DNA of 63,892 bases from Rubritepida flocculans DSM 14296 (lineage in GTDB: Bacteria; Pseudomonadota; Alphaproteobacteria; Acetobacterales; Acetobacteraceae), in assembly GCF_000425365.1 (NCBI RefSeq), contig NZ_AUDH01000019.1, positions 1 to 63,892 of the forward strand, written 5' to 3'. Positions 33,526-38,173 of the stretch are shown in pieces. The position numbers and the translations under genes are program-made. The notes under the pieces are model-generated. The model worked only from the letters and a program-made list of their open reading frames with translations. It did no database searches and was not told the origin of the DNA. Numbering within the stretch: position 1 is the first letter of the stretch; the number at the start of each line of letters is the position of its first letter.

Positions 33526-34125
33526 TCAGGCCAGATGCGCGGCGGGGCCGAGCAGCGCCTCGCGCATCCGCGCCTGAAGGATCGCGCCCTCGCGCGGCGG
33601 CAGCACGAGCGGGAGGTTCGCCGCATCCACCTTGGCCACCGCGAAGAAGGGCCCCGCCTTGGCGCGCGTGGCCGCCACCAGGGCGGGCACCTGCTCGGGC
33701 GCGGTGACGCGCATGGTGGCCTTGATGCCCGCGCCCTCGGCCATGGTCACGAGGTCCGTGCCATGGGCGGTCGCGGTCTGCTGCATGCCCGTCTCGCCGT
33801 AGTGCTCGTTGTCCTGCACCACGATGGCGAGGTTGGGCGGCGCCTGCTGCGCGATGCTGGCCAGGCTGCCCACGCCCATCAGCATCTCGCCATCGCCGGT
33901 GATCACCAGCACCGGGCGCGCGGGCTGCGCCAGGGCGAGGCCGAGGCCGATCATCGCCGCCCCGCCCATCCCGCCCCAGAGCGGGAAGTTGCAGGGGTGG
34001 TCGCCCACCGCCGTGATGTCCCAGGCGGGCGCGCCGAGCCCCGCCACCACCAGCAGCTCGCCGCGATCGGCGAGCAGGGCGCGCACCAGTTCGCGCCGGT
34101 CGAGCTTTCCGGAAGCCGCGCGCAT
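33526..34125 (-). CDS. TPP-dependent decarboxylase beta subunit (sulfopyruvate/phosphonopyruvate decarboxylase type)
   Basis: The 199-residue product is the C-terminal, TPP-diphosphate-binding half of a split decarboxylase. The TPP motif runs from VITGDGEMLMGVGSLASIA to VVQDNEHYGETGMQQ. In the known cases the split enzymes are sulfopyruvate decarboxylase (ComD/ComE), making sulfoacetaldehyde, and single-chain relatives act on phosphonopyruvate. It follows the alpha subunit gene with a one-base gap. It lies in a locus that diverges from ethanolamine ammonia-lyase, so it may act on another C2/C3 substrate. Specificity is not readable from sequence. Confidence 0.85.
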   Translation of the reverse strand: MRAASGKLDRRELVRALLADRGELLVVAGLGAPAWDITAVGDHPCNFPLWGGMGGAAMIGLGLALAQPARPVLVITGDGEMLMGVGSLASIAQQAPPNLAIVVQDNEHYGETGMQQTATAHGTDLVTMAEGAGIKATMRVTAPEQVPALVAATRAKAGPFFAVAKVDAANLPLVLPPREGAILQARMREALLGPAAHLA

Positions 34126-34126
34126 C

Positions 34127-34678
34127 TCAGTCCTTCCCGAATGTCTTGGCGCCCAGCACGCGCTGGCCGATCAGCGTGGCCGCGGGGCGATAGGTGTGGA
34201 AGGCGAGCTTCAGCGTGGCCTCCACCGTGGGCTCCACATCCTCGGCGCGGTCGGCGCGGTGCACCAGCGTGCCCATCGCCTCCAGCACCGTCTGCGTCGC
34301 CTGGCCCATGGGCACCTGCGCCGGGTTGAACTCGCCGAAATCGCCGCGCATGGTCACGATCATCGGCATCGGGCAGCGATGGATCGTCGCCAGCGAGAGC
34401 ATGTTGATGCAGTTCCCCACGCCGGAGGACTGCATGAGCAGCACGCCGCGCTGCCCGCCGAGCCAGGCGCCCTGCATCAGCGCGATTCCCTCCTCCTCGG
34501 TGGTCAGCGTCACCACGCGCAGGTCGTTGTCGGCCAGGCAGCGGCGGATCAGCCGCGCATGCCCCGCATCGGGCACCAGGGCCACCTGGCGGATTGAATG
34601 GCGCTTGAGCAGCGCGTAGATGCGGTCTGGCCAATCGGCCGCGGCATCGGGCGCGGTTTCCATCGCCTGGCGATCCAT
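34127..34678 (-). CDS. TPP-dependent decarboxylase alpha subunit (ComD-like)
   Basis: The 183-residue product is the pyrimidine-binding half of the split TPP enzyme. The catalytic Glu is in VTLTTEEEGIALMQGAWLGG, and LLMQSSGVGNCINMLS and MIVTMRGDFGEFNPAQVPMG match sulfopyruvate and phosphonopyruvate decarboxylases. I use the ATG at 34678 because GGAGG lies 6 bases before it. An ATG two codons earlier (34684) has GGAGG with no spacer, and longer frames run into the divergent eutB region. Only 61 bp separate it from eutB. Confidence 0.86.
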   Translation of the reverse strand: MDRQAMETAPDAAADWPDRIYALLKRHSIRQVALVPDAGHARLIRRCLADNDLRVVTLTTEEEGIALMQGAWLGGQRGVLLMQSSGVGNCINMLSLATIHRCPMPMIVTMRGDFGEFNPAQVPMGQATQTVLEAMGTLVHRADRAEDVEPTVEATLKLAFHTYRPAATLIGQRVLGAKTFGKD

Positions 34679-34739
34679 GGACATCCTCCGGTCGCGGGGG
34701 AGCATCCGTCCGGTCCCGGCATCTGTCCAGCGGGGGCGC

Positions 34740-36101
34740 ATGGCTTTCCGGCACAGCGTCGCAGGCACCACCTACGTTTTCGACGACCTGCGCACGCTGC
34801 TCGCGCGCGCCACCCCCTTCCGCTCGGGCGATGCGCTGGCCGGCGTGGCGGCTGCCAGCGCGGCCGAGCGCGTGGCCGCGCAGCGCGCGCTGGCCGATCT
34901 GCCGCTGCGGCATTTCCTGAACGAGGCCATCATCCCCTACGAGGCGGACGAGGTGACGCGCCTCATCCTCGATGGGCACGATCCGGCGGCCTTCGCGCCC
35001 ATCGCGCACCTCACCGTGGGCGGCTTCCGCGACTGGCTGCTCGCCGCGCCGCCCGAGGCGCTGCCGCCGATCCGCGCCGGGCTCACGCCCGAGATGGTGG
35101 CCGCCGTCTCCAAGATCATGCGCGTGGCGGATCTCGTCTCGGTCGCGGCGAAATGCCGCGTCGTCACGCGCTTCCGCAACACGATCGGGCTGCCGGGCAC
35201 GCTCTCCATCCGCCTGCAGCCCAACCACCCGACGGATGATCCGCGCGGCGTGGCGGCGGCGGTGCTGGATGGGCTGCTGCTCGGCGCGGGCGATGCGGTG
35301 ATCGGCGTGAATCCGGCCACCGACAATGTCGAGCAGGCGATGGCGCTGCTCGAGATGCTGGAGGCCGTGCGCGAGCGCTTCGCGATCCCGACCCAGAGCT
35401 GCGTGCTCTGCCACGTCACCACCAGCCTGCGCGTCATCGAGCGCGGCGCGCCGGTCGATCTCGTCTTCCAGTCCATCGGCGGCACGGAAGGCGTGAACCG
35501 CAGCTTCGGCGTGGATCTCGCCCTGCTGCGCGAGGCGCGCGAGGCCGCGCTCGCGCTGAAACGCGGCACGCTCGGCGAGAACGTGATGTATTTCGAGACC
35601 GGCCAGGGCAGCGCGCTCTCGGCCGAGGCGCATCACGGCGTGGACCAGCAGACGCTGGAGGCCCGCGCCTATGCCGTCGCGCGCGCCTTCGCCCCGCTGC
35701 TGGTGAACAGCGTGGTGGGCTTCATCGGCCCCGAATACCTCTTCGACGGCAAGCAGATCCTGCGCGCCGGGCTCGAGGACCATTTCTGCGGCAAGCTGCT
35801 CGGCCTGCCGATGGGCGTGGACGTCTGCTACACGAACCACGCGGAGGCGGACCAGGACGACATGGACGCGCTGCTGATCGCGCTGGCCGTGGCGGGCGTC
35901 ACCTACATCATGGGCGTGCCGGGGGCGGATGACGTGATGCTCGCCTACCAGTCGACGAGCTTCCATGACGGGCTCACGGCGCGGGCGCTGCTCGGCAAGA
36001 CGCCGGCGCCGGAGTTCGCGGCCTGGATGGAACGGATGGGGATCGGCGCAGGCGAGGCGATCCCGGAGCGCCTCTCGCCGGCGCTGATCGGCCTCGCATG
36101 A
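34740..36101 (+). CDS. eutB: Ethanolamine ammonia-lyase large subunit
   Basis: EutB with EutC is the adenosylcobalamin enzyme that turns ethanolamine into acetaldehyde and ammonia. The 453-residue product is of family length. Substrate ligands known for the E. coli enzyme seem to be kept: Arg and Gln in SIRLQPNHP, Asn in IGVNPATDNVEQA, Glu in YFETGQGSALSAEAHHG and Asp in VCYTNHAEADQDDMDAL. No eutA reactivase, eut shell genes or eutR regulator lie nearby, so this is the minimal form. It is coupled to eutC by ATGA. Confidence 0.95.
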   Translation: MAFRHSVAGTTYVFDDLRTLLARATPFRSGDALAGVAAASAAERVAAQRALADLPLRHFLNEAIIPYEADEVTRLILDGHDPAAFAPIAHLTVGGFRDWLLAAPPEALPPIRAGLTPEMVAAVSKIMRVADLVSVAAKCRVVTRFRNTIGLPGTLSIRLQPNHPTDDPRGVAAAVLDGLLLGAGDAVIGVNPATDNVEQAMALLEMLEAVRERFAIPTQSCVLCHVTTSLRVIERGAPVDLVFQSIGGTEGVNRSFGVDLALLREAREAALALKRGTLGENVMYFETGQGSALSAEAHHGVDQQTLEARAYAVARAFAPLLVNSVVGFIGPEYLFDGKQILRAGLEDHFCGKLLGLPMGVDVCYTNHAEADQDDMDALLIALAVAGVTYIMGVPGADDVMLAYQSTSFHDGLTARALLGKTPAPEFAAWMERMGIGAGEAIPERLSPALIGLA

Positions 36102-36796
36102 GCCTCACCCGCTGGGCCGACCTCCGCCGCTTCACCCCCGCCCGCGTCGGCCTCGGCCGTGCCGGCACGGGGCTGCCCACGGCCGCCCATCTCGACTTCC
36201 AGGAGGCGCACGCCGCGGCGCGCGACGCGGTGTGGTCCGAACTCCGCCCCGAGGCGCTCGGCCTCGACGCGCCCGTGGTGCAGAGCGCGGCGCGCGACCG
36301 GCGCGAATACCTGCTGCGCCCCGATCTCGGCCGGCGGCTCCGCGCGGAGGATGCGGCGCGGCTGCCGCGCACGGGCGGCGTGGTCGTCGTCGTGGCCGAC
36401 GGGCTTTGCGCCGCCGGCGTGCAGGCCCAGGCCGTGCCGCTGCTGCGCACCTTCGCCGCCCCCTGGCCCGTGGTGGTGGCGCTGCAGGCGCGCGTGGCGC
36501 TGGGCGACGCCATCGGCGAGGCCATGGGCGCCGAGGCGGTGGTGGTCATGATCGGCGAGCGCCCCGGCCTCTCCGCGCAGGACAGCCTGGGCCTCTACCT
36601 CACCTGGGCCCCTCGCCCCGGCCGCACCGACGCCGAGCGGAACTGCATCAGCAACATCCGCCCCGGCGGCCTCACGCATGCGGAGGCGGCGGCGAAGCTG
36701 CATTGGCTGCTCGGCGCGGCGCGCGCGCTGGGCGCGACCGGCGTGGCGCTGAAGGACGAGATGCCGGCGCTTCCGTCGCTGGAGGGCAAGGGATAG
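36098..36796 (+). CDS. eutC: Ethanolamine ammonia-lyase small subunit
   Basis: The 232-residue EutC binds most of the adenosylcobalamin cofactor. It begins with the usual short N-terminal segment, then RVGLGRAGTGLPTAAHLDFQ, VVVVADGLCAAGVQAQ, and the C-terminal VVVMIGERPGLSAQDSLGLY and RNCISNIRPGGLTHAEAAAKL, all family signatures. It overlaps eutB by four bases. A Bug-type binding protein gene follows 28 bp later and could capture the substrate of this pathway. Confidence 0.95.
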   Translation: MSLTRWADLRRFTPARVGLGRAGTGLPTAAHLDFQEAHAAARDAVWSELRPEALGLDAPVVQSAARDRREYLLRPDLGRRLRAEDAARLPRTGGVVVVVADGLCAAGVQAQAVPLLRTFAAPWPVVVALQARVALGDAIGEAMGAEAVVVMIGERPGLSAQDSLGLYLTWAPRPGRTDAERNCISNIRPGGLTHAEAAAKLHWLLGAARALGATGVALKDEMPALPSLEGKG

Positions 36797-36824
36797 CCTG
36801 CCCCGAAACACGGGGAGGAAGGCC

Positions 36825-37769
36825 ATGCCCATGCTGCGCGTTCTCTGCGCCCTCGCGGCGCTTCTCGCACCGCCCTGGGCGGCGGCGCAGGAGTATCCCA
36901 CGCGGCCCGTCCAGCTCGTCATCCCCTTCCCGCCCGGCGGCAACACGGACCTGATGGCCCGCGCGCTCCAGGCCGAGCTCGCGCGCGCGCTCGGCGGCAC
37001 GGTGGTGGCGGTGAACCGCGGCGGCGCGGCGGGCGCCATCGGCAACGCCGAGGTGTTCCGCGCCCGGCCGGACGGCTACACCATCGGCCTCTCGCCCAAC
37101 AACGCCATCACCACCCAGCCGCACCTGCAGAGCACGGCCTACACGGCCGAGGGCTTCCGCTACCTCTGCCTCGTCTACGACAACCCGCAGGTGGTGATCC
37201 TCGGCCGCAACGCGCCCTTCCGCGACTTCGCGGGCATGATCGCCCACGCGCGCACGGGGCGCGAGGCGCTGGTCTATGGCGCGCCCGGGCTCGGCAGCAC
37301 GCAGCACATCCTGATGGCGCAGCTTCTGCGCGCGGCGGGCGTGAGCGGCCTGTTCGTGCCCTACACCGGCGCGGGGCCCATGGCCCAGGCGGCGCTGGCG
37401 GGCGACATCATGGCCTTCGTCGAGGCCGCGACCATCCCGGCCTCCACGGGGCTCGGCGTGCTCGCGGTGCTCGATCGCCAGCGCATGCCCTCCCTGCCCG
37501 ATGTGCCGAGCATCGCCGAGCTCGGCATCCCCATGCGCGGCACGACCTATGGCGGCCTCCTCGCGCCGGCCGATCTGCCCGACGCCATCGCCGCCCGGCT
37601 GGAGCGCGCCTGCGAGCGGGCGGTGGCCAGCGAGGGCTTCCGCAGCGCCGCCGAGCGGCTGAACGCCGTGCCGAGCTTCGCCCCCGGCGCCGAGTTCCGC
37701 GCGCGCTTCCTGGGCGAGAGCCAGGCGAACCGCGCGCTGCTCGAAGACCTGGGCATCCGCCGCCAGTGA
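36825..37769 (+). CDS. Tripartite tricarboxylate transporter (Bug family) substrate-binding protein
   Basis: This 314-residue periplasmic protein has a signal peptide ending near AAAQ (about 22), then the Bug signatures EYPTRPVQLVIPFPPGGNTD and GGAAGAIGNAEVFRARPDGYTI. The ligand-binding loops follow the family pattern. No TctA/TctB membrane subunits are nearby; orphan Bug proteins are common in Betaproteobacteria and Acetobacteraceae. It sits 28 bp after eutC and shares its stop with the start of arfB (TGATG), so it is probably transcribed with eutBC. Ligand is unknown. The start could be the Met two codons later. Confidence 0.9.
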   Translation: MPMLRVLCALAALLAPPWAAAQEYPTRPVQLVIPFPPGGNTDLMARALQAELARALGGTVVAVNRGGAAGAIGNAEVFRARPDGYTIGLSPNNAITTQPHLQSTAYTAEGFRYLCLVYDNPQVVILGRNAPFRDFAGMIAHARTGREALVYGAPGLGSTQHILMAQLLRAAGVSGLFVPYTGAGPMAQAALAGDIMAFVEAATIPASTGLGVLAVLDRQRMPSLPDVPSIAELGIPMRGTTYGGLLAPADLPDAIAARLERACERAVASEGFRSAAERLNAVPSFAPGAEFRARFLGESQANRALLEDLGIRRQ

Positions 37770-38173
37770 TGCTCGCGCCCGACCCCGCGCTGATCGAGGA
37801 GGGCTTCCTGCGCGCCTCGGGCCCGGGCGGGCAGAACGTGAACAAGCTGGAGACCGCGGTGCAGCTCCGCTGGCACGCGGCGCAGGACGCGCTGCCCGAG
37901 GATGTGCTGAAGCGCCTGGCCGCCCTGGCGGGGCGGCGCATGACGAAGCAGGGCGTGCTCGTCATCACCGCCCAGCGCCACCGCACGCGCGAGCGCAACC
38001 GCGAGGAGGCGATGGCCCGGCTGCTCGCCCTGCTGGCCGAGGCCGCCGCGCCGCCGCCCCCGCCGCGCCGCCCGACCAGGCCCGGGCGCGCCGCGCGCGA
38101 GCGGCGGCTGGAGGGAAAGGCCGCCCGCGCCGCCACCAAGAAGCTGCGCGGGCGGATCAATCCCGAGTCATGA
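37769..38173 (+). CDS. arfB: Alternative ribosome-rescue factor ArfB (peptidyl-tRNA hydrolase)
   Basis: ArfB frees ribosomes stalled at the end of broken mRNAs. The 134-residue protein has the release-factor-like GGQ motif (20-22) in RASGPGGQNVNKLETAVQL, and a C-terminal basic tail (about 100-130, rich in Arg and Lys) that enters the empty mRNA channel. Length matches the family. The ATG at 37769 overlaps the preceding stop (TGATG); a GTG one codon earlier is the alternative start. Confidence 0.95.
   Translation: MLAPDPALIEEGFLRASGPGGQNVNKLETAVQLRWHAAQDALPEDVLKRLAALAGRRMTKQGVLVITAQRHRTRERNREEAMARLLALLAEAAAPPPPPRRPTRPGRAARERRLEGKAARAATKKLRGRINPES

Follow-up and report, generated by a model that had tools for sequence, protein, structure and literature searches.

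Does a split thiamine diphosphate (ThDP)-dependent decarboxylase that is encoded back to back with an ethanolamine ammonia-lyase belong to the same pathway, or do the two merely share a boundary? The question is raised by a locus of Rubritepida flocculans DSM 14296 on the 63,892-nucleotide contig NZ_AUDH01000019.1, the whole of which we call the window (contig C18 of genome G000; G and L numbers label the genomes and loci compared). On the minus strand, an open reading frame (ORF) at 34127-34678 encodes the N-terminal (PYR) subunit of the decarboxylase (TPPa; PF02776, 27.3 bits against a cut-off of 26.8), followed at 33526-34125 by the ComDE-like C-terminal, ThDP-binding (PP) subunit (TPPb; PF02775, 65.1 bits). 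On the plus strand, eutB (34740-36101; PF06751, 700.5 bits) and eutC (36098-36796; PF05985, 259.2 bits) encode the large and small subunits of ethanolamine ammonia-lyase. The divergent starts of TPPa and eutB are 61 bp apart, and rechecking the ORFs confirmed these genes and coordinates as given in the first-pass annotation. From directly observed gene content, conservation, separability, and retained active-site residues, we regard eutBC and TPPab as independent modules sharing a divergent boundary, with TPPab a 2-oxo-acid decarboxylase, a reading to which we assign a probability of about 0.6.

The TPPab-eutBC arrangement is real, conserved, and old. In a survey of 150 genomes of the family, EutB (threshold 1e-60) is present in 73, and the close TPPa clade (at least 71% identity) gives 31 matches in 30 genomes; counts for close TPPa, here and below, are among the matches listed, short TPPa fragments could be missed, and the family adjacency counts were made by reading the EutB and TPPa lists. 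Both genes occur in 25 genomes, as divergent neighbors in 18 and apart in 7. TPPa adjoins 16 of the 17 same-genus EutB loci; in the 17th (G007, L196) the two share a contig at a distance of 3.6 kb. A scan of named sequences yielded 34 loci at least 72% identical, with eutBC beside TPPab in 19 and not in 14 (assignments that, like those in the tree below, draw on 7 kb of flank at most and in many cases on a shorter stretch), the remaining one (L142) being cut off on the eut side. The co-occurrence check proposed in the first-pass annotation, where rarity of the pair among relatives would have counted against a link, thus found the two halves to be frequent neighbors.

That annotation had gone further and proposed a joint pathway, in which TPPab would decarboxylate a C3 acid or ligate EutBC-derived acetaldehyde to another carbonyl. 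The frequent adjacency fits such a scheme, as do the lack of a local aldehyde dehydrogenase on either side and the fact that TPPab stayed with eutBC in both G000 and G018. However, the loss of eutBC leaves the rest of the block in place. The 100% complete genome G012 has no EutB and keeps arfB-Bug beside TPPab followed by genes for a D-2-hydroxyacid dehydrogenase (2HADH) and an MmgE/PrpD protein (L195). In G013 (74% complete; L198) and in L115-L121, where eutBC is gone within the flanks, arfB lies directly beside TPPab and the block is kept. TPPab-2HADH-MmgE/PrpD is likewise kept in G169, G118, and G090 (L028, L029, and L031), none of which has an EutB match. Conversely, 48 of the 73 EutB genomes have no close TPPa, and none of 46 more distant TPPab loci has eutBC within the available flanks.

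The gene arfB (37769-38173, plus strand; NF006718, 163.3 bits against a cut-off of 100), encoding a ribosome rescue hydrolase, serves as a non-metabolic control. It adjoins eutC in 16 of the 17 eut-adjacent named loci that can be judged (L130 is without it; truncation excludes L137 and L139) and at 2 of 10 eutBC loci that have no TPPab (L095 and L096 of L089-L098). Since a non-metabolic neighbor that is equally persistent beside eutBC shows much the same pattern as TPPab, long-kept linkage to eutBC needs no shared pathway.

In a phylogenetic tree of the TPPab loci, from which two of 80 (L161 and L168) were left out for want of TPPb, the 35 close rows form one clade (SH-aLRT 100). Eut adjacency requires five changes, three of them forced by well-supported branches (L142 being left out of the count), and is seen in none of the 44 rows outside the close clade; we read this as one gain followed by later losses. 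The tree also places TPPab of L115, a contig from a metagenome-assembled genome (MAG) that bears the title Asaia bogorensis, in a tight group with MAGs of Roseomonas; the title seems to be a loosely applied one. L032 and L033 (G107 and G154) carry close TPPab with neither eutBC nor 2HADH beside it; TPPab of L032 is divergent from genes for a luciferase-like monooxygenase and an SsuA-type transporter, with kin in the gene map of L033.

The intergenic region also points to the TPPab side. A CTTG(C/T)CA form with a -10-like hexamer, reading into TPPa, is present in 24 of the 30 divergent loci listed (22 of 28 once two duplicates are set aside). The window lacks that form and has instead, on the minus strand at 34701-34729, a -35-like TGGACA (34729-34724), a 17-bp spacer, and a -10-like GATGCT (34706-34701). 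The CTTG(C/T)CA element lies upstream of lone TPPab in 8 of 13 loci and upstream of lone eutB in none of 16 loci (14 genomes), and is thus more likely TPPab's own promoter. An operator common to both sides was considered and rejected on the same grounds, and comparison of intergenic and upstream regions showed no eut-specific shared operator. Together with the survival of the block after eutBC loss, the many EutB genomes lacking TPPab, and the arfB control, this leaves the joint pathway unsupported, and we consider it unlikely.

TPPab also has partners on its other side. Gene maps (simple ORF calling and tblastn) from many genera give arfB-eutC-eutB / TPPa-TPPb-(Bug)-2HADH-MmgE/PrpD. Of the 19 eut-adjacent named loci, 17 have 2HADH after TPPb, and in the remaining two the sequence stops 463 and 1166 bp beyond TPPb (just past TPPb or the Bug gene); of the 14 named loci that lack adjacent eutBC, 7 have 2HADH. 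An MmgE/PrpD protein of at least 62% identity accompanies close TPPa in 27 of 30 genomes (again among the matches listed), and one of 70-75% identity is found in 16 of the 19 genomes of the same genus that were tested, including 11 of 11 of high quality. In R. flocculans itself, contig C29 carries the intact 2HADH-MmgE/PrpD pair, whose neighbors are a LysR gene and an IS5-like transposase fragment that scores below its cut-off; in the sister genome G018 the pair is likewise intact and at a distance from TPPab. Because pheA follows TPPb in both G000 and G018, the move of the pair probably predates the split of these genomes. Minus-strand frames at L063:11449-12030 and L110:993-3134 contain a repeat, perhaps mobile or MITE-like, that one frame reads as LARSRHTGSHRSKASMGARQPCARYG; it occurs close to the relocated 2HADH gene and close to an aldehyde dehydrogenase gene.

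Several observations weigh against the reading of two independent modules with an ancestral TPPab operon. EutB is present in 25 of the 30 genomes with close TPPa and in 48 of the 120 others (a comparison among the matches listed that ignores descent), and adjacency of TPPab and eutBC is kept in many genera. The eut-adjacent loci are also those with the intact operon: no named locus with TPPab and eutBC demonstrably lacks 2HADH, and only the window and G018 do so, TPPab having stayed there with eutBC while 2HADH-MmgE/PrpD lies elsewhere (L086, L063, and L197). Six of the 14 named loci without adjacent eutBC show no 2HADH (L141, L143, L144, and L147, all four with 6.4 kb downstream, and L131 and L133, with about 1 kb), and one more is truncated. 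Among 13 lone close loci of the family set, 7 have 2HADH and 6 do not, two of the six being near contig ends. The maps of the close operon show no aldehyde dehydrogenase. Further afield, 46 loci at 56-69% identity include 3 with 2HADH, none with MmgE/PrpD, 7 with aldehyde dehydrogenase, and 11 with acyl-CoA dehydrogenase, and one of ten plasmid loci has none of the partners described below. A constant TPPab-2HADH partnership was accordingly rejected, a recount having shown that relocated TPPab is often without 2HADH; the recognizable old block keeps 2HADH, and relocated TPPab tends to lose both sides.

Which acid TPPab acts on can be narrowed by its motifs and nearest relatives. TPPb carries GDG-X26-N, in agreement with what we take to be the ThDP motif, GDG-X(24-27)-N, and with a split ThDP-dependent decarboxylase, and has the loop DNEHYGETGMQ; the TTEEEG stretch of TPPa, presumably the site of the catalytic Glu, is invariant in 8 of 8 aligned orthologues. 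The Pfam cut-offs are passed by TPP_enzyme_C and, narrowly, by TPP_enzyme_N. The ComDE-like alpha/beta enzyme of the first-pass annotation is borne out by these domains and by relatedness to TIGR03845 and TIGR03846. This ComDE likeness would suit a sulfopyruvate decarboxylase in a sulfolactate-type pathway, in which Bug would presumably be SlcH-like and 2HADH SlcC-like. The best models for 2HADH come from the phosphoglycerate-dehydrogenase group, and PMC6303947 places SlcC either within that group or next to it, depending on the tree method, which also counts for sulfopyruvate. Both subunits nevertheless miss the ComDE equivalog cut-offs (TPPa, 120.7 against 147.95 bits with TIGR03845; TPPb, 132.7 against 221.5 bits with TIGR03846), and MmgE/PrpD has no obvious role in such a pathway. 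Xsc (TIGR03457 at 1e-150; other sulfoacetaldehyde routes were not searched) is found in 3 of the 150 family genomes, none of them with close TPPa among the matches listed and G000 not among them. The missed cut-offs and the failure to find Xsc make sulfopyruvate an improbable substrate.

The best PDB match to both subunits is RhiEF (9IZ3; for TPPb, RhiF, 9IZ3_B), which might suggest a phosphonopyruvate decarboxylase of the RhiEF/Ppd type. With TIGR03297, however, the subunits score 96.8 and 63.9 bits against a cut-off of 312.5, and RhiF reads STGGQ where TPPb has ETGMQ; the ETG loop is shared by all 34 close rows and by every other row with a displayed motif (40 of the 45). By cut-off and loop sequence, and with PEP mutase and phosphonate genes outside the search, phosphonopyruvate is a very unlikely substrate.

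An oxaloacetate-like substrate, as judged from these sequences, is a tentative candidate for the decarboxylase of the independent TPPab module. MmgE/PrpD keeps H88, E91, H102, Y148, H152, K202, and K266 in 3 of 3 sequences, with spacing within one residue; these are the seven active-site residues named in PMC12290011, which describes for characterized MmgE/PrpD enzymes a common 1,4-dicarboxylate substrate core and a proposed enolate mechanism. The NCBIfam PrpD equivalog cut-off is not reached (52.6 bits against 950 for the L028 copy; no match at 1e-20 for the G000 copy). 2HADH is nearest to phosphoglycerate dehydrogenase models. In that group, according to PMC6303947, an Arg-Ser motif provides an arginine that binds the substrate phosphate; 2HADH reads VRAT at this stretch, keeping the arginine and not the serine.

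Within this second module, TPPab would be the product of the first two genes of the ancestral TPPab-(Bug)-2HADH-MmgE/PrpD operon. The Bug protein would capture a C4-type organic acid, which MmgE/PrpD may epimerize or dehydrate; 2HADH would then oxidize a D-2-hydroxy acid bearing a beta-anionic group, giving an oxaloacetate-like 2-oxo acid, and TPPab would release C1 as CO2, leaving a malonate-semialdehyde-like aldehyde for oxidation by an aldehyde dehydrogenase. ComDE and RhiEF act on 3-anionic pyruvates, and conversion of a malate-like to an oxaloacetate-like acid followed by C1 decarboxylation suits this preference together with the MmgE/PrpD substrate core and the 2HADH arginine. KdcA, a ThDP enzyme that converts oxaloacetate to malonic semialdehyde, provides a precedent for the TPPab step (PMC12455653).

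The first module, by our best reading of the sequence, is an ordinary stand-alone ethanolamine lyase. EutB and EutC pass their Pfam cut-offs and the curated cut-offs for the enzyme (NF011649, 691.1 against 554 bits; NF003971, 267.9 against 230 bits). All six residues that we take to be the ethanolamine-binding set of EutB (R160, Q162, N193, E287, F329, and D362, E. coli numbering) are kept when mapped on an alignment, as the first-pass annotation had noted, and differences occur at 2 of 17 listed positions (E257 to S, N389 to T), neither of which is, to our knowledge, catalytic. That annotation was also right that eutA, a local aldehyde dehydrogenase gene, and a B12 riboswitch are missing. EutA has no match in the genome at 1e-10, which is the family norm, as EutA (1e-10) occurs in 4 of the 150 family genomes and 71 of the 73 with EutB lack it (2 have it). 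Within the window every Rfam family stays below its gathering score, and thus no B12 riboswitch was found there. No aldehyde dehydrogenase gene lies at the locus; elsewhere in the genome are three full-length PF00171 matches (one nearest succinate-semialdehyde and two nearest betaine-aldehyde dehydrogenase models, none above the cut-off shown), two pieces on C29, and one partial match on C1. The TIGR00908 ethanolamine permease (1e-100) is present in 10 of 150 family genomes, not including G000, and lies beside eutBC in 8, none of which has close TPPa among the matches listed. Cobalamin adenosylation could be served by a PduO-type protein (PF01923, 211.5 bits, at G000:C6), no CobA/CobO-type PF02572 being found in G000. 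The adenosylcobalamin-dependent EutBC would thus convert ethanolamine to ammonia and acetaldehyde with neither microcompartment nor EutA, and a general aldehyde dehydrogenase encoded away from the locus would probably deal with the acetaldehyde.

The two modules might still meet downstream. Acetaldehyde can arise from a malonate-semialdehyde-type aldehyde by loss of the second carboxyl, and it is conceivable, though doubtful, that the ancestral TPPab-Bug-2HADH-MmgE/PrpD operon is an undescribed pathway in which the natural split ThDP enzyme alpha-decarboxylates an oxaloacetate-type acid and whose product converges with EutBC on acetaldehyde and the same aldehyde dehydrogenase. If true, this would explain both the lack of an aldehyde dehydrogenase of its own in either module and their back-to-back persistence.

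The remaining gene of the locus, at 36825-37769 on the plus strand, encodes a Bug/TctC periplasmic binding protein (PF03401, TctC, 133.4 bits against a gathering score of 27). No TctAB genes were seen beside it, and it is one of 92 PF03401 matches in the 3.8-Mb genome, which makes a Bug neighbor weak evidence of linked transport. In G012, which has lost eutBC, a 75% relative still separates arfB from TPPab. None of the maps combines a window-type Bug after eutC (L086-L088, L195, L196, L199, and L200) with a different Bug directly after TPPb; mutual exclusion of the two types would fit the replacement of one acid receptor by another.

Relatives of TPPab are common, with at least 581 confirmed stretches in one scan, and the more distant ones keep other company. 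Ten of 40 plasmid records with such relatives were opened; aldehyde dehydrogenase is present in 9, CoA-transferase in 7, MmgE/PrpD or "2-methylcitrate dehydratase" in 6, acyl-CoA dehydrogenase, CitE-type lyase, and MaoC in 5 each, and eutBC in none. The rarity of 2HADH, MmgE/PrpD, and aldehyde dehydrogenase among the 46 chromosomal loci at 56-69% identity indicates that TPPab partners vary widely. In the plasmid loci L099-L106 and L108, relatives of 51-60% identity are clustered with aldehyde dehydrogenase and with varying combinations of acyl-CoA dehydrogenase, CaiB CoA-transferase, CitE-type lyase, MaoC, and MmgE/PrpD. These clusters look like a methylsuccinate/itaconate-type route that is fed by the oxidative decarboxylation of a branched 2-oxo dicarboxylate. 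The cluster of a peanut Bradyrhizobium (L106) also has a Glu/Leu-type dehydrogenase, which at a guess would suit 4-methyleneglutamate or some such amino acid. Seven of the 30 plasmid rows listed bear the name "phosphonopyruvate decarboxylase"; the neighborhoods in the ten records mainly suggest catabolism of organic acids, so that reconstructions of phosphonate and sulfonate pathways may be led astray by such names.

Taken together, the interest of the locus lies in the TPPab-2HADH-MmgE/PrpD operon rather than in the combination of TPPab with EutBC, and a conserved divergent pair can be taken for one pathway although one flank may be a mere long-lived neighbor. The ancestral acid-degradation operon is apparently undescribed: the literature searched, which leaves most subscription papers outside and is thus weak evidence of novelty, contained no description of a PrpD/2HADH/ThDP operon and no paper joining "ethanolamine ammonia-lyase" with "sulfopyruvate decarboxylase" or with "Roseomonas".

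Compared with known systems, TPPab resembles ComDE and RhiEF in having short PYR and PP subunits on separate polypeptides encoded by adjacent genes. It differs from them in scoring below the curated cut-offs, in the loop that distinguishes it from RhiF, and in the operon with 2HADH and MmgE/PrpD in which its relatives stand. The operon shares with the itaconate/methylsuccinate cluster (PMC12290011) an MmgE/PrpD protein with the same seven active-site residues, and acyl-CoA dehydrogenase, CoA-transferase, and CitE-type genes accompany some of the distant TPPab relatives as in that cluster, whereas the maps of the close operon show no such CoA enzymes and have 2HADH and TPPab instead. EutBC, for its part, resembles the metabolosome-free enzyme of Acinetobacter baumannii, which works without shell, EutA, and EutE (PMC9426561), in that eutBC is likewise accompanied by neither shell genes nor EutA. 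It differs in having TPPab as the divergent neighbor, and no TIGR00908-type permease was found in the R. flocculans genome.

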